Shown here: positions 24,774 to 36,332 of the stretch, in pieces
Layout: every line of letters starts with the position of its first letter
How positions within the stretch are numbered: the first letter of the stretch is position 1
Assembly: GCF_016406305.1 (NCBI RefSeq)
Contig: NZ_CP066369.1
Span: 2,064,501-2,128,500, forward strand
Length of the DNA stretch: 64,000 nucleotides
Origin: Shewanella putrefaciens
Lineage (GTDB): Bacteria; Pseudomonadota; Gammaproteobacteria; Enterobacterales; Shewanellaceae
Direction of reading: 5' to 3'
Position numbers and translations under genes: made by a program
The notes under the pieces: model-generated
What the model saw: only the letters and a program-made list of their open reading frames with translations
The model's database searches: none
What the model was told of the DNA's origin: nothing

Positions 24774-25028
24774 ATGCTTAAAATCAATATATTGGGGACG
24801 GGTTGTACAAAATGTCACACTCTCGCGGAAGCGACCGTGACGGCGGCCGATGCCCTTAATCTTGACTATCAATTAACGAAAATCACCGATATTGAACAAA
24901 TCATGGCTTACGGCGTTATGTCTACTCCCGCCTTGGTGATCGATGGGCAAGTTAAGTTAACTGGTCGCATTCCCAGCCAAGCCGAGATAAAGGATTTACT
25001 TAGCGCACACCTCAAGTCTTCAGTGTAG
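24774..25028 (+). CDS. Small thioredoxin-like protein (redox-active disulfide protein 2 type)
   Basis: Thioredoxin-fold protein of 84 residues with the active site TGCTKCHT and cis-proline segment VMSTPALVIDG. No signal peptide is present, so it works in the cytoplasm. It is three bases upstream of arsF. A paralogue lies at 33244 beside the second ArsP. In this setting it may reduce arsenic species or give electrons to the CcdA-like ArsG; both are inference. Confidence 0.87.
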   Translation: MLKINILGTGCTKCHTLAEATVTAADALNLDYQLTKITDIEQIMAYGVMSTPALVIDGQVKLTGRIPSQAEIKDLLSAHLKSSV

Positions 25029-25031
25029 GTA

Positions 25032-25517
25032 ATGGCTATGAATATAAAGAAAATTGTCAGTTTGCTACTGCTTGGCATTATTGGCTTAGGGATAGCGCTA
25101 GTAGGCTATCAAGAGTTTGTGACCTCGCCTGAGCAAACTCTCCCCCCTCAGGCGGCTGTCACTCCTCAACTCAAAAATGGGGTGGAAATTTATTACTTCC
25201 ATGGTAATCAGCGCTGTACTACCTGTATTCGCATGGAAAAATTTACTCAGGCTGCGGTGATGAACCACTTTTTTAAGGATGTGCGCGATGGGAACATGCG
25301 GTTAAGTTTAGTTAACGTGGATTTAGCGGAAAACGAACATTACATCGATGATTATCAACTCGTGTTTAGAACCGTGGTGATTGTCAATTTCCAAGATGGC
25401 GTGCAAACCGACTGGCGTCGCTTAGATAAGATTTGGGAGTTGGCCAATAATGAGGCCGCTTTTGAGCAATATGTTACCGATGAGATCGGGGCGATGCTAA
25501 GGTTGCGTCATGGATGA
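25032..25517 (+). CDS. arsF: ArsF-family membrane-anchored thioredoxin-like protein
   Basis: A 161-residue protein with one N-terminal membrane helix (residues 8-25) and a periplasmic domain carrying a CxxC, YFHGNQRCTTCIRMEKFT, as in ArsF proteins (labelled nitrophenyl compound nitroreductase subunit in databases). It ends eight bases inside the next gene, so the two are translationally coupled. ArsF and ArsG occur together in arsenic operons. The CxxC and the anchoring suggest a periplasmic redox partner of ArsG. Confidence 0.82.
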   Translation: MAMNIKKIVSLLLLGIIGLGIALVGYQEFVTSPEQTLPPQAAVTPQLKNGVEIYYFHGNQRCTTCIRMEKFTQAAVMNHFFKDVRDGNMRLSLVNVDLAENEHYIDDYQLVFRTVVIVNFQDGVQTDWRRLDKIWELANNEAAFEQYVTDEIGAMLRLRHG

Positions 25518-26214
25518 GTGGTCGGTTTTATTAATGTCAGCCTTTTGGTTTGGCATTTTAACCTCTATAAGTCCCTGTCCTTTGGCCACCAATGTGGCGG
25601 CCATTTCCTATATCAGTAAAGGGATACAATCGCCCTATCGGGTTGTGGGTACAGGGCTTGCTTACACTATAGGGCGCATGCTGAGTTATTTGGTGATTGG
25701 TGTGATATTGGTAGGCAGTTTGCTCTCGACAATGACATTATCAGTCGCGCTTCAGAAATATATGAACCTACTATTAGGTCCGATTTTGATATTGGTAGGG
25801 ATGTTTTTGCTGGAGTTATTGACGTTGCGTCTACCGGGTGATGGTGTCTTAATCGAAAAATTAAAGTCTAAAATTAACCCTCAGGGATATGTAGGAGCTT
25901 TACTGCTAGGGGTGTTATTTGCGCTGTCATTTTGTCCGACTTCTGCCGCGCTCTTCTTTGGTTCGCTGCTGCCGCTTGCACTAGAGTCACAATCGAGTAT
26001 TGCATTGCCAGCGATTTATGGCTTAGCGACTGGGTTGCCGGTTTTAGTCTTCGCCATTTTACTTGGGGTTAGCGCGCGTCGTGTCGCTAAAGCTTATAAC
26101 CATATTTTGGCATTTGAGCATTGGGCCAGAAAAATCACTGGCCTAGTGTTTATCATCATCGGTGGCTATTACGCTTGGGTGAATATTTTTAGTCCATTTA
26201 TGGGTGGAAATTAA
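25510..26214 (+). CDS. arsG: ArsG-family CcdA/DsbD-like membrane protein
   Basis: Polytopic inner-membrane protein of 234 residues with about six helices. It has the two CcdA-type cysteines, one in helix 1 (SISPCPLATNVAAI) and one in the fourth segment (ALSFCPTSAALFFG). Databases name the family an aromatic arsenical efflux permease. Its fold also fits the beta domain of DsbD, which moves reducing power across the membrane. It overlaps arsF by eight bases. Transport and electron transfer both remain possible. Confidence 0.83.
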   Translation: MDEWSVLLMSAFWFGILTSISPCPLATNVAAISYISKGIQSPYRVVGTGLAYTIGRMLSYLVIGVILVGSLLSTMTLSVALQKYMNLLLGPILILVGMFLLELLTLRLPGDGVLIEKLKSKINPQGYVGALLLGVLFALSFCPTSAALFFGSLLPLALESQSSIALPAIYGLATGLPVLVFAILLGVSARRVAKAYNHILAFEHWARKITGLVFIIIGGYYAWVNIFSPFMGGN

Positions 26215-26294: not shown

Positions 26295-26738
26295 CTATTT
26301 TTTAACTCTCTGCCCATTAGCATCAATCACCACTTCACCGTCTTCCTTGGTAAAAGCGCCCAGTTGGGGATTAGGTAACATATCCAAAACGCTTTCTGAT
26401 GGACGGCATAGGCGGGTGCCCAATGGTGTAACGACGATGGGACGATTGATTAGGATGGGGTACTCGAGCATAAAATCGATTAATTCGCTGTCGCTAAACT
26501 TATCTTCACTTAAGCCTAATGCTGCAAAGGGTTCGACATTTTGCCGCAGTAAACTGCGCACCGAAATCCCCATATCCGCAATCAGTTGTAACAGCGTTTG
26601 GCGATTTGGCGGCGTCTCAAGGTAGAGGATAATAGTCGGTTCAACCCCTGTATTGCGGATAAGGCCTAAGGTGTTACGCGAGGTGCCACAGGCCGGATTA
26701 TGGTAAATCCTAATGCTGTCATCAATCATATTAGTCAT
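26295..26738 (-). CDS. arsC: Arsenate reductase ArsC, glutaredoxin-dependent
   Basis: Reduces arsenate to arsenite with glutathione and glutaredoxin. The 147 residues closely follow the E. coli plasmid-type ArsC: IYHNPACGTSRNTLGLIRN with the active-site Cys near residue 17, then PILINRPIVVTPLGTRLCRP containing the arsenate-binding arginines. The start could also be ATG 26729 (MIDDSIRIYHNP). It follows arsB on the minus strand after a hairpin-containing 80-base gap. The eukaryotic-type glutathione synthetase encoded upstream could supply its cosubstrate. Confidence 0.96.
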   Translation of the reverse strand: MTNMIDDSIRIYHNPACGTSRNTLGLIRNTGVEPTIILYLETPPNRQTLLQLIADMGISVRSLLRQNVEPFAALGLSEDKFSDSELIDFMLEYPILINRPIVVTPLGTRLCRPSESVLDMLPNPQLGAFTKEDGEVVIDANGQRVKK

Positions 26739-26818: not shown

Positions 26819-28102
26819 TCAGAAGGAGAGGCGCAGCGCCAGTGCCGCTAGGGTGACAAACAGCACTGGTACTGTCATCACTATGCCGACGCGGAAATAG
26901 TAACCCCAGGTTATATTGATATTTTTCTGCGCCAGTACATGCAGCCATAGCAGGGTTGCTAAACTGCCGATAGGCGTGATTTTAGGGCCTAAATCGCTGC
27001 CTATCACGTTAGCGTAGATCATGGCTTCTTTAATCACGCCGGTTGCATTGCTACCGTCTATCGACAGGGCGCCGACTAACACGGTTGGCATGTTGTTCAT
27101 GATGGAGGATAAAAAGGCGACTAAAAACCCTGTGCCCATAGTGGCAACCCAAAGCCCCTGTGCTGCCAAGCTGTCCAACACGTGAGATAGATAATCCGTT
27201 AAGCCGGCGTTACGCAGACCATAAACCACCAGATACATACCCAGTGAAAAGATCACTATTTGCCATGGCGCGCCGCGCAGTACCTTAGTGGTATCTATCC
27301 CATGGCCTTTCTTGGCGACCACAAACAGGATAAGCGCGCCCACGGCAGCAACTAAACTCACTGGCACGCCTAGGGGTTCTAGGCCAAAAAAGCCCACCAA
27401 GAGTAAGACTAATACGCCCCAACCGGTTTTAAAGGTGTTGAGGTCGCGAATGGCGGCCTTAGGTTCGCGTAGTTTTTGCAAGTCGTAGGTCGCGGGAATA
27501 TCTTTGCGAAAAAACAGATGCAGCATCACTAATGTGGCGCTAATCGCGGCAATATCGACGGGCACCATTACAGCGGCATATTCGTTAAAGCCTATCTTGA
27601 AAAAGTCCGCCGAAACGATATTCACTAAGTTAGAGACGATTAACGGCAAACTTGCGGTATCGGCAATAAAACCAGCGGCCATTACAAAGGCTAAGGTGGC
27701 TCCGGCGCTAAAGCCCAGTGCCAGTAACATCGCAATCACTATGGGGGTGAGGATCAGCGCCGCGCCATCATTCGCGAATAAGGCGGCAACGGTAGCACCG
27801 AGTAACACTATGTAAGTAAAGAGTAAACGGCCACGACCTTTACCCCAGCGGGCCACATGCAGCGCGGCCCATTCGAAAAATCCTGACTCATCCAATAATA
27901 AACTGATGATGATCACGGCGATAAAGGTGGCGGTCGCATTCCAGACAATATTCCACACCACGGGAATATCCCCTAACTGCACTACGCCTAATAGCAAGGC
28001 CAATACGGCGCCCAAGGTGGCACTCCAACCTATGCCTAATCCCTTAGGCTGCCAAATCACTAACACTATGGTGAGAACAAAAATCGCCCCTGCCAACCAC
28101 AT
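26819..28102 (-). CDS. arsB: Arsenite efflux permease ArsB
   Basis: Arsenite/antimonite:proton antiporter with about 12 helices, 427 residues against 429 in E. coli. Long segments are nearly the same as the E. coli plasmid R773 protein, for example [15 protein letters not shown] and [17 protein letters not shown]. The start at 28102 follows AGGAGG at good spacing; the frame from 28144 adds 14 residues without support. No arsA is present, so it acts as a secondary transporter. An ArsR-type inverted repeat lies about 105 bases upstream. The very high resemblance to enterobacterial ArsB fits a mobile origin. Confidence 0.97.
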
Positions 28103-28205
28103 AAAACCTCCTACAAGGACAGAGGCTTGCCTGCCCTTAACCAAAAAATGCCAATAACGCGGTATGAATATCGTTTGTTTCTTGGCTCAGTCGAATTATA
28201 TTAAC

Positions 28206-28277: not shown

Positions 28278-29762
28278 TTAAGTTTCGTCACAAACCCTAA
28301 GGTATTGATCACTAAACATCAGCGAATCTAATACCCCTTGGCCGCTGTGAACACCGCCCTCTGTGACTTTGGCGGATTTGCTGCGAATTAAATACCCCGC
28401 ATAGCTGGGACTCTCTGCATGGGTTTTATCATTGACGGCGGCTATGCCATCATAGTGGACGCTGAACATGCCAATTTCAGGGATCAAGTCATCGATGATG
28501 TGTATTTCGCCGTCGCGTACCACTAAAGCCTGGGTTGCTCTCGGCCTTGGGTGTAAGCGACGCATTAAGGACCATACTGGATATTGTGCGGGCTCAAGCT
28601 CGGCTAATTTGGGGAGAATATCGGCGCCAAAAATACAATGACCGCCGCCTTCCCCTTGATTTTTCAATACCCAAGTATCTATTGGGGACTCGGCAATTAA
28701 CTGGGGGCTCTGTGCGGTGACAGGGCGCATTTCACCGAGGAGTGACTTGACCATGCTGGCTTCTGGCTGAGTTAATCCAAACTGAGTTAAGCTCTGTTCA
28801 TCCATAGTCGAGAGCAGCATTTGCATTCGTTTACTGGTTGCCAACTGCTGGCCTAAGGTCGCATTGAGGGCGATGCGATGTTGTTCAAGCAACACCCGGA
28901 TCTCCATCAGGGCTTGGTAATCCCTGTTGCCATTGATGTCGACGGTTGCATAATCGGCAAATTGATAACCTGTACGCAGATAAACGGTATCAATGGTCCC
29001 CACGCCGTCGAGTATTAGCCTTTGCTGTGCGCCGGTGGTGAGTTGCCCTTGCAGTTCACTCAAGGTCCTGCGTAGGGTCTGTATTCCTTTTTGCTGCAGC
29101 GCGAGTTCGAGTAAATGCTGATCAAACACATTGTCTTCATCTTCTTGCACTAGCATCAAAAATCTTGCCGGTCCTGAATCTTCAAATTCCTGTTTTATCT
29201 TAAAGGTTGCTGTTGCTATGCCGACGGATAATTGTTCAATAGCATGATTCTCAACCAGTACCCCCTTAGGTTGTATAGACCATTGCTGCTGTAAATAGCG
29301 ATGAAGTTGATGGGCCCGCTGACCAAAGGGGCCCATGCCAGCCGCTATGCCATTAAACTCCACCAGTTTGGGTCCTAAGTCCCGATCGTCCATAAAGTCG
29401 CTACGCATAATAAGCAGTGGCATTCTTGGGGCTGGGGTGCCAGAGCTATTTGTAGAGCTATGTGCAGAGCCATGCAACTGTTGATGCGCTTTCAATAGCG
29501 CGGCAAAGAAGGGATCGCTTGCTGTAATAGGTTGAATAGCATCAACTAAAAAGGCATGTGCTTCAGACACATAATGGATAAGTTTACCCAGTGGCTCCAC
29601 CGCACTTTTGAGATATTGATAGTGTGCTTTACTGATTAAACTGGGCGTTAGGGTAAATGGGGTGTGGCGGACAGAATACGCGGTTTCTTTAAAGGCCATC
29701 CCATGGGTTAGCGCCCATTCTATGGCATCATCTTTGGCTGCTAGTGGCACAGTTAAACTCAT
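28278..29762 (-). CDS. Eukaryotic-type glutathione synthetase
   Basis: ATP-grasp ligase of 494 residues of the eukaryotic glutathione synthetase (GSS) family, unlike the bacterial GshB. Motifs: RSDFMDD...KLVEFNGIAAGMGPFG (about 120-147), YLRTGYQFADY (261-271), the ATP-binding VLKNQGEGGGHCIFG (365-379), LMRRLHPRP (399-407), EIGMFSVHY (429-437) and the Gly-rich lid GGVHSGQGVLDS (469-480). It would join gamma-glutamylcysteine and glycine. The start at 29762 gives MSLTVPLAAKDD and has an AAGAGA element; the frame from 29867 has no such support. It lies between arsP1 and arsB on the same strand. Other thiol ligase products are possible. Confidence 0.85.
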   Translation of the reverse strand: MSLTVPLAAKDDAIEWALTHGMAFKETAYSVRHTPFTLTPSLISKAHYQYLKSAVEPLGKLIHYVSEAHAFLVDAIQPITASDPFFAALLKAHQQLHGSAHSSTNSSGTPAPRMPLLIMRSDFMDDRDLGPKLVEFNGIAAGMGPFGQRAHQLHRYLQQQWSIQPKGVLVENHAIEQLSVGIATATFKIKQEFEDSGPARFLMLVQEDEDNVFDQHLLELALQQKGIQTLRRTLSELQGQLTTGAQQRLILDGVGTIDTVYLRTGYQFADYATVDINGNRDYQALMEIRVLLEQHRIALNATLGQQLATSKRMQMLLSTMDEQSLTQFGLTQPEASMVKSLLGEMRPVTAQSPQLIAESPIDTWVLKNQGEGGGHCIFGADILPKLAELEPAQYPVWSLMRRLHPRPRATQALVVRDGEIHIIDDLIPEIGMFSVHYDGIAAVNDKTHAESPSYAGYLIRSKSAKVTEGGVHSGQGVLDSLMFSDQYLRVCDET

Positions 29763-29883
29763 GTTGATTCTCTTAAACTGACAGCGTTTATTGGCAATAC
29801 CTGTCTTTGCATTTGTAGGGGGTAGCCCTAAGGCACTCACTTTAAGGGCATATAGTGAGTGCCACATCGAACTAGATCATTAT

Positions 29884-29932
29884 TTTGTGTATTAGCTAAA
29901 GAGATAGGTTTGTGTATTAGCTAAAGAGATAG
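29884..29932. repeat. 25-bp-period tandem duplication across the arsP1 stop codon
   Basis: A 24-base unit starting TTTGTGTATTAGC is present at 29884-29907 and 29909-29932. The right copy encodes the last five codons and stop of arsP1; the left copy repeats them downstream. It is probably a slippage duplication. Confidence 0.9.
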
Positions 29933-30993
29933 CTATACAGAAACCCTGCGCCCACAGCCATGCCTAAAATAACGCTGAGAAATGCGGCAATCATCTGACC
30001 TTTAAAAATGGCTTTAAGTAATATGACTTCGGTCAAACTTGCTCCGGCACTCCCTATGATCAATGCCATTACTGAGCCCATCGCCATGCCTTTTTGGATT
30101 AACGCAGCGCTGAGTGGGATAACCGCTTCTGCGCGAATATAGAGTGGGATCCCAATTAATGCGGCAATGGGGATCGCATACCATGTGGCTTCTCCAGCAT
30201 ACTGAACGATTAACTCCGTTGGCATAAATCCGTAGATCATTGAACCCAATAGCACACCGATAAACAGATAGGGCTGCACTTGTTTGAAGTCCTTCCAAGT
30301 GGCGCGCCAAACCTTTACCCAGCGGCTCTGAGGTTTGTTTTGCGGCGCGGTTTGGGAAGGGCAACACGAAGTTGCAATAGGCTCAGCTTGAGTAGCGCAA
30401 CACAAGGTCACCGCGGGGGCGGTTTTACTATCACAACATGCGCTGACAATGGGTGCGGGGTTTACCTCGCAACCGCTACTCGCGGTCGGTGACGGTTTAG
30501 TATCGCAACATGAAGCAGCTGTGGCTGTATCTGCCTGAGCATAGGCCTCCTGACGTACATATTGTTCAAATCCGAGTTTTTCCAGCAAGTAACCTGCTAT
30601 TACGGATACGCCCAGAGCGACCGTAAAATAAAATAGCGCGACCTTAAACCCAAAGGTGACCACAAAAAGCCCGATAATCACCGGATTAAGTAATGGGCTG
30701 GCAAATAGGAATACCATCATAGGGCCAAATCCCGCACGGGCCCTGAGTAAACCTTTTAAGAATGGAATAGTGGAGCAGGAGCAAAAGGGGGTGATAGACC
30801 CAAGCAAGGCGGCCACTATATAGCCTCGACCATGGCGGGAACTTAATATGGATTGCACTTTTTGCGGGGTGATAAATTCTTGCAGCATACCGACGAGGTA
30901 GCTTATGGCAAGAAATAACAAGGTTAGCTCAAATGCAAGAAAGACGAACATATTGACCGTTTCTTTCAGCATAGTGATAGTTTCGGGAGTCAT
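29917..30993 (-). CDS. arsP: ArsP-type permease with repeated Cys-Cys loop
   Basis: Inner-membrane permease of 358 residues, family of ArsP organoarsenical exporters. The hallmark TPFCSCSTIPF is at 68-78, followed by ASPLLNPVIIGLF; the second half has GIPLYIRAEAVIPLSAALI. Between the halves, residues about 150-228 form a cytoplasmic loop with cysteines at 162-163, 175, 186-187, 198-199 and 210-211, a strict 12-residue period. Such a loop could bind trivalent arsenic or another soft metal before export. The gene is divergent from a second arsR and is followed by the glutathione synthetase gene. Confidence 0.88.
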   Translation of the reverse strand: MTPETITMLKETVNMFVFLAFELTLLFLAISYLVGMLQEFITPQKVQSILSSRHGRGYIVAALLGSITPFCSCSTIPFLKGLLRARAGFGPMMVFLFASPLLNPVIIGLFVVTFGFKVALFYFTVALGVSVIAGYLLEKLGFEQYVRQEAYAQADTATAASCCDTKPSPTASSGCEVNPAPIVSACCDSKTAPAVTLCCATQAEPIATSCCPSQTAPQNKPQSRWVKVWRATWKDFKQVQPYLFIGVLLGSMIYGFMPTELIVQYAGEATWYAIPIAALIGIPLYIRAEAVIPLSAALIQKGMAMGSVMALIIGSAGASLTEVILLKAIFKGQMIAAFLSVILGMAVGAGFLYSYLFS

Positions 30994-31019: not shown

Positions 31020-31035
31020 ATTATTCCGGAATAAT
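31020..31035. promoter_or_regulatory. Operator-like palindrome between arsP1 and arsR2
   Basis: ATTATTCCGGAATAAT is a perfect 16-base palindrome 27 bases upstream of the arsP1 start. A partial relative, TATTATCGAATAAC, lies near 31192 close to the divergent arsR start. These are probable sites of the ArsR at 31238. Confidence 0.6.
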
Positions 31036-31237
31036 AGTGATTGAGTGGGATTATTTCAACACTTAATTTCTGGAAATGTGGAAATATTTAGAATGGGATT
31101 AAACGTGATCCTCAGTAAGCCCTGTAGGCTAAGTTCTTCCCTAGGCTGTTTGCCCTTCATTTTGACGTCGCTCGGGAATAGATATTTCTGGTATTATCGA
31201 ATAACTTAACAAAGGACTCTGAAATCACAGTACCGAT

Positions 31238-31525
31238 ATGAATACAGAAAATGCAGCTAAAGTATTGAAGGAGCTAGGGCATCCCACTCGTCTTGCCCTA
31301 TTCAGAATATTGGTAAAAGGCGGCTATGGGGGCGTTGCCGTGGGGCAATTACAGGAAGCATTACAGATCCCAGGTTCAACACTCTCGCACCATATTAGCG
31401 CCTTAATGTCGGCCGGCATTATCTCCCAGCGGCGTGAGGGCAGAGTGTTATATTGCGTGCCTGACTATGAATTATTACAGGGACTGGTGCATTTTTTACA
31501 GGATCAATGTTGTAGTGAACAATGA
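31238..31525 (+). CDS. ArsR-family regulator, second of three
   Basis: Winged-helix repressor of 95 residues: KELGHPTRLALFRILVKGG, recognition helix GSTLSHHISALMSAGI, wing RREGRVLYCVPDY. It lacks the CVC motif of the other two ArsR proteins; its cysteines are in LYCV and the C-terminal DQCCSEQ, so the metal site must differ. It is divergent from arsP1, which it probably controls. Confidence 0.87.
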   Translation: MNTENAAKVLKELGHPTRLALFRILVKGGYGGVAVGQLQEALQIPGSTLSHHISALMSAGIISQRREGRVLYCVPDYELLQGLVHFLQDQCCSEQ

Positions 31526-31795: not shown

Positions 31796-32143
31796 ATGAT
31801 TAATCCTACGCAGTTTTTTAAATGTTTAGCCGACGAAACGCGCCTGCGTTGTTTGATGCTTATTCAGCACGAGGGTGAGCTTTGCGTCTGTGAATTGACC
31901 GAAGCCTTGCAGGAAATTCAGCCCAAGATCTCACGGCATTTGGCCCAATTACGTAAATGCGGATTATTAGTCGATCGCCGTCAGGGACAATGGATTTTTT
32001 ACCGGATCAGTAATGACTTACCCGAATGGAGTCAGTTAGTTTTGAGCGAAGTCACCAGCAAAAATACGGCATTCCTTGAAGAAAATATGCACAATCTGTG
32101 TAAGATGGGCGGCCGTCCCGAGCGCGCTAAAGCCTGCTGTTAA
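31796..32143 (+). CDS. arsR: ArsR-family arsenite-responsive repressor, third of three
   Basis: Classical ArsR of 115 residues. ELCVCELTEAL is the As(III)-binding helix, PKISRHLAQLRKCGLL the recognition helix, RRQGQWIFYRIS the wing, and the end carries KACC. ATG 31796 follows AAGGA (31786-31790). Similar inverted repeats before arsB, before this gene and before arsP2 make it the likely master repressor of most of the island. Confidence 0.93.
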   Translation: MINPTQFFKCLADETRLRCLMLIQHEGELCVCELTEALQEIQPKISRHLAQLRKCGLLVDRRQGQWIFYRISNDLPEWSQLVLSEVTSKNTAFLEENMHNLCKMGGRPERAKACC

Positions 32144-32174
32144 CCGATTAACAGCAAAAAATTTAATCTAAAAC

Positions 32175-32190
32175 ATATGTTTTTTCATAT
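32175..32190. promoter_or_regulatory. ArsR-type operator C (arsP2 operon)
   Basis: ATATGT-TTTT-TCATAT within the perfect AACATATG-N6-CATATGTT inverted repeat (32172-32193). It lies 42 bases before the arsP2 start and just after arsR3. Confidence 0.78.
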
Positions 32191-32234
32191 GTTTGTGCAT
32201 TCAAGGTACTTGCCGATAATAGGGTGGTGGGGTC

Positions 32235-33233
32235 ATGTTGCAACTATTTTCCGATTTAGCGAGCTGGTTAACCTTTGGGGTGATGGGCCTAGATCCCAAT
32301 ACTAAGCTTGCCGATGCGGTACATTTTTTTATTGAAGATACCACTAAGATTTTTGCACTCCTGTTGCTGATGATTTATGCCATCGCCTTGGTGCGGGCAT
32401 CGCTCAATGTTGAGCGGGTGCGGGATTACTTAGCGGGTAAAAATCGCTTTATTGGGTATTTTATGGGCTCTGGCTTCGGCGCTGTGACCCCATTCTGCTC
32501 ATGTTCGAGCATTCCGGTATTTTTAGGTTTTACCTCCGCGGGGATCCCTGTGGGGATCACTATGGCGTTTTTGATCACGTCACCGTTAATTAATGAAGTG
32601 GCCGTTCTGCTGCTGGTAAGTCTGCTGGGCTGGAAGTTCACAGTGATATACGTGTTGGTCGGTATGTCGGTGGGGATACTCGCTGGCGCCTTTTTAGACA
32701 CGATCCGCGCCGAACGTTGGTTGCAGTCCTTTGCCGCCAAAGCACTAGAGCAAGGTCAGGCGCAGGCGAGCCAAGATAATAGTGAGGGTATGACATCAAC
32801 ATCCATGACTTTAACCGAGCGACATAAGTTTGCAAAAGGCGAGACCCTAGAGATTTTTGGTCGAGTGTGGAAATGGGTCATTATCGGGGTAGGGCTTGGC
32901 GCCGCGCTTCATGGTTTTGTCCCCGATGGTTGGATTGAAGCACACCTTGGCGATGGTCAGTGGTGGTCGGTTCCTGCGGCGGTATTGATTGGTATTCCCT
33001 TGTATTCCAATGCGACAGGTGTCATCCCAATTATGGAAAGCCTTATTACTAACGGCCTTCCCATAGGCACGACATTGGCATTTTGTATGTCGACGGTGGC
33101 AGCGAGTTTCCCCGAATTTATCTTACTAAAGCAGGTGATGCAATGGCGCTTACTGGCCATCGTTTTTGCCATTTTGTTGATTGCATTCACCCTGATAGGG
33201 TGGATATTTAACGCTATCAGTCCCATGTTATGA
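32235..33233 (+). CDS. arsP: ArsP-type permease, second copy
   Basis: Permease of 332 residues, related to the one at 29917 but without its cysteine-rich loop. Motifs: TPFCSCSSIPVFLGF in the first half, TSPLINEVAVLL next, and GIPLYSNATGVIPIMESLI in the second. ArsP members export trivalent organoarsenicals such as methylarsenite in characterised cases. The loop here is short and acidic to polar (about 175-200). It starts an operon with a thioredoxin-like protein, a phosphatase, GAPDH and ArsJ. Confidence 0.88.
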   Translation: MLQLFSDLASWLTFGVMGLDPNTKLADAVHFFIEDTTKIFALLLLMIYAIALVRASLNVERVRDYLAGKNRFIGYFMGSGFGAVTPFCSCSSIPVFLGFTSAGIPVGITMAFLITSPLINEVAVLLLVSLLGWKFTVIYVLVGMSVGILAGAFLDTIRAERWLQSFAAKALEQGQAQASQDNSEGMTSTSMTLTERHKFAKGETLEIFGRVWKWVIIGVGLGAALHGFVPDGWIEAHLGDGQWWSVPAAVLIGIPLYSNATGVIPIMESLITNGLPIGTTLAFCMSTVAASFPEFILLKQVMQWRLLAIVFAILLIAFTLIGWIFNAISPML

Positions 33234-34053: not shown

Positions 34054-35064
34054 ATGACAATCAAAATTGGGATCAATGGCTTTGGCCGTATGGGACGTTT
34101 AGCGCTGCGCGCCGCTTGGGGCTGGAATGACGTCGAATTTGTGCAAATTAACGATCCCGCAGGGGATGCACCGACCTTAGCCCATCTGCTGACATTCGAT
34201 TCTGTGCATGGCCGTTGGCAGCATGAGGCGAACAGTGAGTGTGATGACATCATTATCGATGGCAAGCGGATTCGTTGTACGCGCAATAAAACCATCGCCG
34301 AAACCGATTGGTCCGCCTGCGATGTGGTGATTGAAGCTTCGGGTAAGATGAAAACCAAAGCTGTGCTGCAAGCTTATTTAGATCAAGGTGTTAAACGCGT
34401 TGTGGTCACGGCGCCCGTTAAGGAAGAGGGTGTGTTAAACGTTGTCATGGGGGTGAATCATCAGCTCTATGATAAAGCCATTCATCCGATTGTGACGGCG
34501 GCTTCCTGTACCACTAACTGTTTGGCGCCAATTGTTAAAGTCATCCATGAAAACCTCGGCATAGTGCATGGTTCCATGACGACCATTCACGATATTACCA
34601 ACACTCAAACGATTTTAGATGCACCGCACAAAGATCTTCGCCGTGCGCGGGCCTGTGGTTTAAGCCTCATCCCCACGACGACGGGCTCAGCGACGGCCAT
34701 TACTCATATTTTCCCTGAACTCAAAGGCAAGCTAAACGGCCATGCGGTGCGTGTACCGCTGGCAAATGCATCTTTAACCGACTGTGTATTTGAGGTGAGT
34801 CGTAAAACCACCGAGGCAGAGGTCAATCGCCTGTTAAAAGAGGCCGCAGAAGGGCCATTAAAAGGCATTTTAGGTTATGAGGAACGGCCGTTAGTGTCGG
34901 TGGATTATAAAACCGATCCCCGTTCGAGCATTATTGATGCACTATCGACCATGATCATCAATGGCACTCAGGTCAAACTCTACGCTTGGTATGATAATGA
35001 GTGGGGTTATGCTAACCGTGCGGCCGAGCTTGCCCGTATGGTCGGTCTGATGGATAAGGCATAA
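34054..35064 (+). CDS. ArsJ-associated glyceraldehyde-3-phosphate dehydrogenase
   Basis: GAPDH paralogue of 336 residues that uses arsenate in place of phosphate, making 1-arseno-3-phosphoglycerate for export by Ars[17 protein letters not shown] is the NAD-binding motif; Cys152 in [11 protein letters not shown] and His179 are catalytic. ATG 34054 lies seven bases after AAGGA; the ATG at 34039 is rejected. It is followed by arsJ after 23 bases. This is a second arsenate defence besides ArsC/ArsB. Confidence 0.93.
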
Positions 35065-35087
35065 GCTTTGATATTTAAAGGGATACT

Positions 35088-36332
35088 ATGGCTAACCTGA
35101 CAGGGTTCTTGTCCAACTTATCACCCGAAATTCGCCAGTATTTAATGATCACTGGCAATTATTGGGCCTTCACGCTTACCGACGGCGCACTGCGTATGTT
35201 AGTGGTGCTCCATTTTCATGGCTTAGGTTATAGCCCGCTGCAAATTGCGATGTTATTCCTTTTTTATGAAGTGTTCGGGGTGGTTACAAACTTAGTCGGT
35301 GGTTGGCTCGGGGCGCGTCTAGGCTTAAATAAGACCATGAATATTGGTCTGTTTATGCAGATTGTCGCCCTTAGCATGCTGCTCGTGCCTAGCGGTATGC
35401 TCACGGTTGCTTGGGTGATGGCGGCGCAGGCCTTGTCGGGTATTGCTAAAGATCTCAATAAAATGAGCGCCAAAAGCAGTATTAAGTTGTTGGTGCCTAA
35501 GGATGCCCAGGGGGAGTTGTATAAGTGGGTTGCTATGCTCACCGGATCCAAAAATGCCCTAAAGGGTGCGGGGTTCTTCTTGGGCGGTGCCTTGCTGACG
35601 ATGTTTGGTTTTCAACAGGCTGTGCTAGGCATGGCGATGGGTCTATTGCTGGTGTGGATTTTTAGTCTGTTAAGTTTGCGGCGCGACTTAGGCAAGGCCA
35701 AAAACAAACCTAAGTTTACCGAAATTTTCTCTAAGAGTTCGGCGGTAAACACGCTTTCAGCCGCGCGCATGTTTTTATTTGGCGCGCGGGATGTCTGGTT
35801 TGTGGTGGCTTTACCTGTGTATTTGGCCTCGACCTTTGCTTGGGATCACTGGTATGTCGGCGGTTTTCTCGCACTCTGGGTGATAGGCTACGGTATAGTG
35901 CAAGCCTTTGCGCCCCGATTGACGGGAACAAAGTCTGTGGGCAGAAACAAGGTTCCCGATGGACGTAGCGCCTTAGGTTGGGCGGCGATATTGAGCATAG
36001 TGCCTGTATTGATTGCCTTAGCGCTAACCTATGATTTCCATGCCGCTAACGTGTTGGTGTGGGGATTAATGCTCTTTGGCGCCTTATTTGCCATCAACTC
36101 CTCATTACACAGCTATCTTATCGTCAGTTATGCCGATGAAGATGGCGTGTCCTTGGATGTCGGCTTCTATTACATGGCCAATGCCATGGGGCGCTTGATT
36201 GGCACTGTGCTGTCTGGCTGGGTATATCAAGTGCATGGCATGGCGGCGTGCCTGTGGATTTCGGCGGCATTTATTGGGTTAGCGGCACTTATCTCCATTA
36301 AACTGCCAAGGCACTCTGTGGCTGGCACTTAG
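35088..36332 (+). CDS. arsJ: ArsJ, organoarsenical (1-arseno-3-phosphoglycerate) exporter
   Basis: MFS transporter of 414 residues with about 11-12 helices that exports the arsenoester made by the upstream GAPDH; the ester then breaks down outside and releases arsenate. The N-terminal part reads YLMITGNYWAFTLTDGALRML, and SGIAKDLNKMSAKSSIK is a conserved loop after helix 4. It is the last gene of the operon; an intrinsic terminator begins 53 bases downstream. With the two genes' pairing the assignment is strong. Confidence 0.94.
   Translation: MANLTGFLSNLSPEIRQYLMITGNYWAFTLTDGALRMLVVLHFHGLGYSPLQIAMLFLFYEVFGVVTNLVGGWLGARLGLNKTMNIGLFMQIVALSMLLVPSGMLTVAWVMAAQALSGIAKDLNKMSAKSSIKLLVPKDAQGELYKWVAMLTGSKNALKGAGFFLGGALLTMFGFQQAVLGMAMGLLLVWIFSLLSLRRDLGKAKNKPKFTEIFSKSSAVNTLSAARMFLFGARDVWFVVALPVYLASTFAWDHWYVGGFLALWVIGYGIVQAFAPRLTGTKSVGRNKVPDGRSALGWAAILSIVPVLIALALTYDFHAANVLVWGLMLFGALFAINSSLHSYLIVSYADEDGVSLDVGFYYMANAMGRLIGTVLSGWVYQVHGMAACLWISAAFIGLAALISIKLPRHSVAGT

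Follow-up and report, generated by a model that had tools for sequence, protein, structure and literature searches.

Why does an arsenic island of Shewanella putrefaciens, whose genome holds the bacterial glutathione synthetase GshB elsewhere, carry a gene for a glutathione synthetase of eukaryotic type (GSS), and does the encoded enzyme make glutathione? The question was raised by an earlier note on a 64,000-nucleotide stretch of contig NZ_CP066369.1 (the window; all coordinates refer to it unless a locus is named), which proposed that this additional, transferred enzyme raises thiol supply under arsenic stress or makes a variant thiol. A neighbourhood of GSS and ars genes had been seen previously, as a figure legend in a 2019 paper (PMC6429310) marks by colour a gene called "glutathione synthetase" in arr/ars modules, those of pSheB, ANA-3 and Aeromonas O23A among them. 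Multidrug-resistance plasmids carry genes of the same kind, annotated as "glutathione synthase", and we found no described role for them.

An intact gene of the eukaryotic GSS family

The GSS-like gene occupies 28278-29762 of the minus strand and is an uninterrupted open reading frame of 494 aa (ATG to TAA). Another in-frame ATG further upstream, at 29867, would give a protein of 529 aa, but the start is placed at 29762 because the aligned methionine there is the start in relatives. The gene is under purifying selection (dN/dS 0.10-0.21), and the four motifs quoted in the earlier note as those of a GSS are all found in the protein in the correct order.

A Pfam search of the protein gave matches to PF03917 (1e-52, residues 11-482, score 179.6, cut-off 25) and PF03199 (1e-18, score 68.2, cut-off 20.9) alone, with PF02955 of GshB unmatched, and among PDB sequences its strong matches belong without exception to eukaryotic GSS or GSS-like proteins (human, 1.6e-34). 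An AlphaFold2 model built with 55 relatives (mean pLDDT 90.7) matches the human, soybean, yeast and potato enzymes over the whole length with Z scores of 42.5-44 (human GSS: 43.8 for 8FBZ, and 42.5 for 2HGS over 444 residues with an rmsd of 2.3), as against 9.2 over 208 aligned residues for E. coli GshB (1GSA). Domains, PDB matches and predicted fold thus agree in placing the protein in the eukaryotic-type GSS family and not with GshB, as had been read from its motifs. Against the TIGR01986 "glutathione synthase" equivalog model it scores 204 bits, below the cut-off of 329.8; it lies inside the GSS superfamily without certified membership of that equivalog, and the shortfall is a first hint of a separate GSS subfamily.

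Conserved substrate contacts and an altered acceptor loop

Active-site residues were compared across 105 bacterial sequences, the window's included, with human, potato and soybean rows from PDB alignments. The numbering of the ATP, Mg and gamma-Glu-Cys contacts was taken from the human enzyme. Residues R125, E144, N146, E214, N216, Q220, R267, Y270, K305, K364, E368, M398, E425, R450 and K452 are invariant in all 105 bacterial sequences, and Q211 is kept in 104. Since these contact residues are conserved, the enzyme presumably uses ATP, Mg2+ and gamma-Glu-Cys.

Other positions distinguish the subfamily. At the human ISAS (148-151) of the gamma-Glu-Cys pocket the window protein has IAAGM (residues 139-143; 29334-29348, minus strand), and the two pocket serines, S149 and S151, are replaced by A and G in 104-105 of the 105 sequences. 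The ATP-binding G-loop WVLKNQGEGGGHC (residues 364-376; 28635-28673, minus strand) carries the changes P365N, R367G and NN372-373HC in human numbering, which are almost uniform across the subfamily. These subfamily-wide changes near the pocket would suit a ligase that has left gamma-Glu-Cys for another substrate, as the nematode GSS-like effectors have done, a precedent for the repurposing of a GSS (PMC5919673). However, the glutamate contacts that those effectors have lost (R, E, two Q, N and Y, listed with two backbone-contacting serines in PMC5919673) are intact here, and in Vibrionaceae the GSS gene stands in one operon with a glutamate-cysteine ligase, so that we consider such a switch of substrate very improbable.

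A further change concerns the acceptor-specificity loop, residues 469-474 (28341-28358, minus strand), which reads GGVHSG in the window protein, GGVAAG in the human enzyme and GGVLPG in soybean homoglutathione synthetase (hGS). In the bacterial subfamily human A462 is replaced by His in 104 and A463 by Ser in 102 of the 105 sequences; neither the Ala-Ala of the human and potato glutathione synthetases nor the Leu-Pro of hGS is present in the window protein. In soybean hGS these two loop positions contribute to acceptor specificity (PMC5919673), and the rice GSS homologue OsGS2 prefers serine and yields hydroxymethyl-glutathione (PMC6508825), so that a change of acceptor in the family has precedent beyond soybean. 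With a subfamily-specific His-Ser in place of Ala-Ala at the acceptor site, the product may be a gamma-Glu-Cys-X other than glutathione, and the variant-thiol branch of the earlier interpretation gains support from a change that runs through the whole subfamily. Nevertheless, nematode GSS are variable at both positions of the loop and keep their preference for glycine (PMC5919673), so His-Ser is no proof of another acceptor.

The same nematode enzymes lend weight to the main idea of the earlier note, a plain second glutathione synthetase, inducible by arsenic, that boosts the supply of glutathione. All gamma-Glu-Cys and ATP residues are kept, as it would require, and the ArsC encoded in the island belongs to the glutathione/glutaredoxin type. 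Against it, the cell already has GshB, the protein falls far under the TIGR01986 cut-off, and the His-Ser loop stays fixed even where identity drops to about 46%, a sign that the difference has been selected. We regard this explanation as a serious possibility, though not the favoured one.

The distribution of gshB bears on the same point. In the window genome, genes for GshA (564.5 bits) and for GshB (270.5 bits; G000:C1:785973-786491) both lie away from the island, which makes the GSS an extra enzyme, as had been supposed, and gshB is kept in all eight tested genomes with a His-type enzyme (seven with a His-Ser loop and one, G022, with His-Lys). Among the bacterial sequences compared, just one has a near-canonical pocket (IASSF/GGIMAG), and its genome (L082/G245) gave no gshB match. 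This pattern fits a takeover of GshB's role by a canonical GSS in one case, with the His-type enzyme serving another function. The gammaproteobacterial gene concerned (L082, 1311-2627) is itself a possible case of GshB replacement by a eukaryotic-type enzyme. Some Shewanella have a second, weaker GshB homologue of about 195 bits (G498:C20:73014-73559 and G014:C29:59641-60186).

The arsenic island and its predicted control

The genes arsP1, GSS, arsB and arsC follow one another in this order on the minus strand, so that GSS lies between arsP1 and arsB on the same strand, as first described. Directly upstream of GSS, arsP1 (29917-30993, minus strand) encodes a PF03773 permease with a Cys-rich loop insert, whose best NCBIfam model, SO_0444 (NF033936), scores 119.9 bits, below the cut-off of 300. 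Downstream are the arsenite efflux pump gene arsB (26819-28144, minus strand; TIGR00935, 761.6 bits) and arsC (26295-26738, minus strand), the product of which exceeds the cut-offs of the glutaredoxin-dependent arsenate reductase models NF007456 (245.7, cut-off 242) and TIGR00014 (129, cut-off 106.05), in keeping with the glutathione-dependent type assigned to it earlier. A gene for an ArsR/SmtB-family regulator (31238-31525, plus strand; NF033788, 64 bits, cut-off 55) diverges from arsP1-GSS. The plus strand further holds arsE-arsF-arsG of the organoarsenical reduction/efflux type (24774-26214) and an ArsJ-associated GAPDH gene with arsJ (34057-36332), both recognized by profile matches, and a second ArsR gene with the arsP2 permease gene (31796-33233), recognized by Pfam.

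The Cys-rich loop of ArsP1 contains the repeated CC motifs SCCDTKP, ACCDSK, LCCATQ and SCCPSQ; it differs between relatives and perhaps serves in metal(loid) binding.

Upstream of arsP1 there is a sigma-70-like promoter, TTGAAA-17-TATTAT (31031-31059, minus strand; a match to the consensus only). The perfect palindrome ATTATTCCGGAATAAT (31020-31035) overlaps its -10 element and is a candidate ArsR operator, called by pattern match; it occurs as a single copy in the window and is conserved, with one change, in Shewanella sp. ANA-3 (L084). The gap between arsP1 and GSS showed no terminator-like site. Two perfect tandem 24-nt copies (29884-29932) lie one over the end of arsP1 and one in this gap. 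The promoter upstream of arsP1, with its candidate ArsR operator, would also serve GSS, so that the gene would be expressed once arsenite releases ArsR.

We therefore think it probable, on the strength of the conserved residues, the acceptor loop and the gene order, that the window GSS acts as a second gamma-Glu-Cys:amino-acid ligase, for which glycine need not be the acceptor, and that it is wired to arsenite stress. The predicted enzyme would be an extra cytoplasmic ATP-grasp ligase with the eukaryotic GSS fold, to which the housekeeping GshA would supply gamma-Glu-Cys; GSS would activate its Cys carboxylate and join it to an amino acid. The resulting thiol may bind As(III), or the glutaredoxin-dependent ArsC may draw on it, and ArsP1 or ArsB may export the complex or the freed arsenical. 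The product, the regulation and the export route of this system are what we infer from such features.

Distribution of relatives and carriage on plasmids

PF03917 was found in 42 of 129 genomes drawn from the genus and 28 of 197 from the order, and by even draw in 2 of 369 from the class and 10 of 398 from the phylum. A scan of the genomes of 84,980 species gave 164 coding matches, of which the best 80 were fetched, so the locus counts lean towards the window's kin. These best 80 of 164 are almost all from Gammaproteobacteria, in the genera Shewanella, Aeromonas, Vibrio, Aliivibrio, Photobacterium, Enterovibrio, Ferrimonas, Endozoicomonas, Marinobacter and others, and the window GSS belongs to a gammaproteobacterial subfamily with members in Shewanella, Vibrio, Photobacterium, Aeromonas and Endozoicomonas.

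A homologue of 62-64% identity occurs on several hundred plasmids, with matches in 352 plasmid records, mostly from E. coli and Salmonella. At an identity of at least 99% it is present in 174 of 5,426 complete E. coli genomes (3%), and 194 of its 199 places there are plasmid-borne. In the plasmid records examined the gene is intact and adjoins IS26 or IS5075/IS4321 elements on resistance plasmids that are rich in IS26; intact copies of WP_000105383.1 lie at L036 8974-10410, L037 7974-9410 and L038 8974-10410. A search for carriage by phages gave no match, and nothing relevant on GSS in oqxAB/IS26 plasmids was found in the part of the literature covered.

The claim that the enzyme had been transferred thus stands as far as mobility between bacteria is concerned, given the plasmids and the several genera and loci. 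A eukaryotic donor does not follow from our tree, a quick build with long outgroup branches and three eukaryotic rows, in which the long branches meet and make the root unsafe. The transfer of glutathione genes has reportedly been treated by Copley and Dhillon.

Arsenic genes beside GSS in other genomes

If the gene were merely a passenger of arsenic islands and plasmids, with no role in arsenic resistance, the link would come from shared mobile elements, as might be suspected from the relative on an IS26-flanked segment of a resistance plasmid without adjoining ars genes and from the many chromosomal copies that stand alone. A survey of other genomes argues otherwise. Within four genes of GSS at 107 distinct loci we counted ArsP 23 times, ArsR 22, ECF sigma factors of the SigZ cluster 29, an ABC transporter cluster 24, GshA 14 and PatB 9. 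ArsP or ArsR lies at most three genes from GSS in 27 of 105 rows, a distribution that needs nine changes on the tree and covers both main clades. An arsP1-type permease gene adjoins GSS in Shewanella (in both main clades), Colwellia, Psychromonas, Motiliproteus and Endozoicomonas, and an arsP2-type gene in Aeromonas and Vibrio. Shewanella genomes have two to four PF03773 genes each, from which we estimate a chance adjacency of GSS and ArsP at well below 1% per genome. A relative of 29% identity (L058) stands directly behind ArsR/ArsP, and Aeromonas allosaccharophila (L089) has arsA, acr3 and arsC, then a SigZ-cluster sigma-factor gene, followed by GSS and arsP2. In some relatives GSS and the adjoining permease gene are on opposite strands. 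This recurrence in unrelated lineages with different flanks, the 29%-identical L058 among them, together with the dN/dS of 0.10-0.21 noted above, makes a mere passenger unlikely, and the proposed tie between GSS and arsenic or metal genes appears in several lineages.

The GSS family is nevertheless not mainly an arsenic gene. Most relatives are found in other settings, many of them in a SigZ-linked thiol operon, and many clade members, a large Shewanella group included, are located away from arsenic genes. In one Shewanella group the neighbours are, by our own reading of the sequences, an AI-2E-type permease, an FtsZ-like and a WYL-type gene, which we attribute to a fixed chromosomal site and not to function. 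A YcaO gene after GSS in L058 is a single case and was taken as chance.

A SigZ-linked thiol operon in Vibrionaceae

Aliivibrio, Photobacterium and Vibrio show the order sigZ, gshA2, two SmdAB-like ABC exporter genes and GSS (L141 1939-9419; also L126, L133, L147, L150, L155, L156 and L161), and A. fischeri has a second, higher-scoring gshA elsewhere in its genome. A two-box promoter, TTGCGTCTTT-N13-CGTCTTA, stands typically 30-50 bp upstream of sigZ, gshA2, GSS or patB; before the first ABC gene its distance to the called start is 80-230 bp. Called by pattern match, like the ArsR operator, the best two-box motif is present in 17 of 48 upstream regions and in at most 5 in shuffled sets. These loci are candidates for a SigZ thiol regulon and would form a dedicated thiol module; in the part of the literature covered we found neither a link between SigZ and glutathione synthesis nor a treatment of this GSS subfamily. 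Many of the SigZ proteins end with a Cys-Cys...Cys tail. Perfect SigZ-type promoters also precede genes for SDF-family symporters beside the GSS operon (L134 9539-10939; L146 2099-3304), which are possible importers of amino acids or cystine.

Control of the window GSS by SigZ was considered and rejected: a search of the window genome found no SigZ above the cut-off (best score 70.6 bits, cut-off 168.65) and no TTGCGTCTTT-N13-CGTCTTA promoter. With both missing from the genome, the window GSS appears to have moved to ArsR-type control.

More tentatively, marine gammaproteobacteria and their mobile arsenic islands might use a dedicated second low-molecular-weight thiol, gamma-Glu-Cys-X with X other than glycine, to detoxify metal(loid)s or electrophiles beside glutathione. 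Its maker would be this ligase of eukaryotic fold, accompanied in Vibrionaceae by a GshA of its own, a pair of ABC exporters and a SigZ regulon. If the acceptor is not glycine, the product would be an undescribed thiol for which pathway enzymes, a candidate exporter and regulators are in hand. Even if the product is glutathione, a cell with GshB would be keeping an additional synthetase, wired to stress, in a mobile island. The readings overlap in part: with glycine as acceptor, the best reading becomes that of a plain second glutathione synthetase, and the passenger reading concerns the role and not the chemistry. From the interpretation that the earlier note had given, the GSS family, the additional enzyme, the bacterial mobility and the arsenic ties are retained.

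Comparison with known systems

The Shewanella arr/ars modules (PMC6429310) are drawn with a "glutathione synthetase" gene, and the passages found in that paper do not go into the gene or its family, nor into the acceptor loop or the wider SigZ context. In Shewanella sp. ANA-3 (L084) GSS has arsP1 on one side and, immediately on the other, the genes of the arsenate respiratory reductase, arrB-arrA (L084 9529-12818); this sequenced strain offers the gene beside those of arsenate respiration.

SO_0444 of S. oneidensis, which mutant fitness identifies as a Cu/Zn efflux protein (PMC3219624), represents the best-scoring model for the island's arsP1, although the score is below its cut-off. The regulators paired with arsP1 here are of the ArsR and not the ZntR type.

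Bacterial GshB (PF02955, 1GSA) shares with the window GSS the ATP-grasp and the pathway step, but only 208 residues align (Z 9.2) and it is encoded by a separate gene. The eukaryotic GSS (human 2HGS, yeast 1M0W, potato 5OES) are similar in the predicted whole-length fold (Z 42.5-43.8) and in the ATP/Mg and gamma-Glu-Cys residues; they differ in overall sequence (about 25% identity), in the G-loop, where the window protein has N and HC, and in the acceptor loop, GGVAAG as opposed to GGVHSG. Soybean homoglutathione synthetase (3KAJ/3KAK/3KAL; Z 43.5-44) has the same fold and likewise altered acceptor-loop alanines, in its case to Leu-Pro where the window protein has His-Ser.
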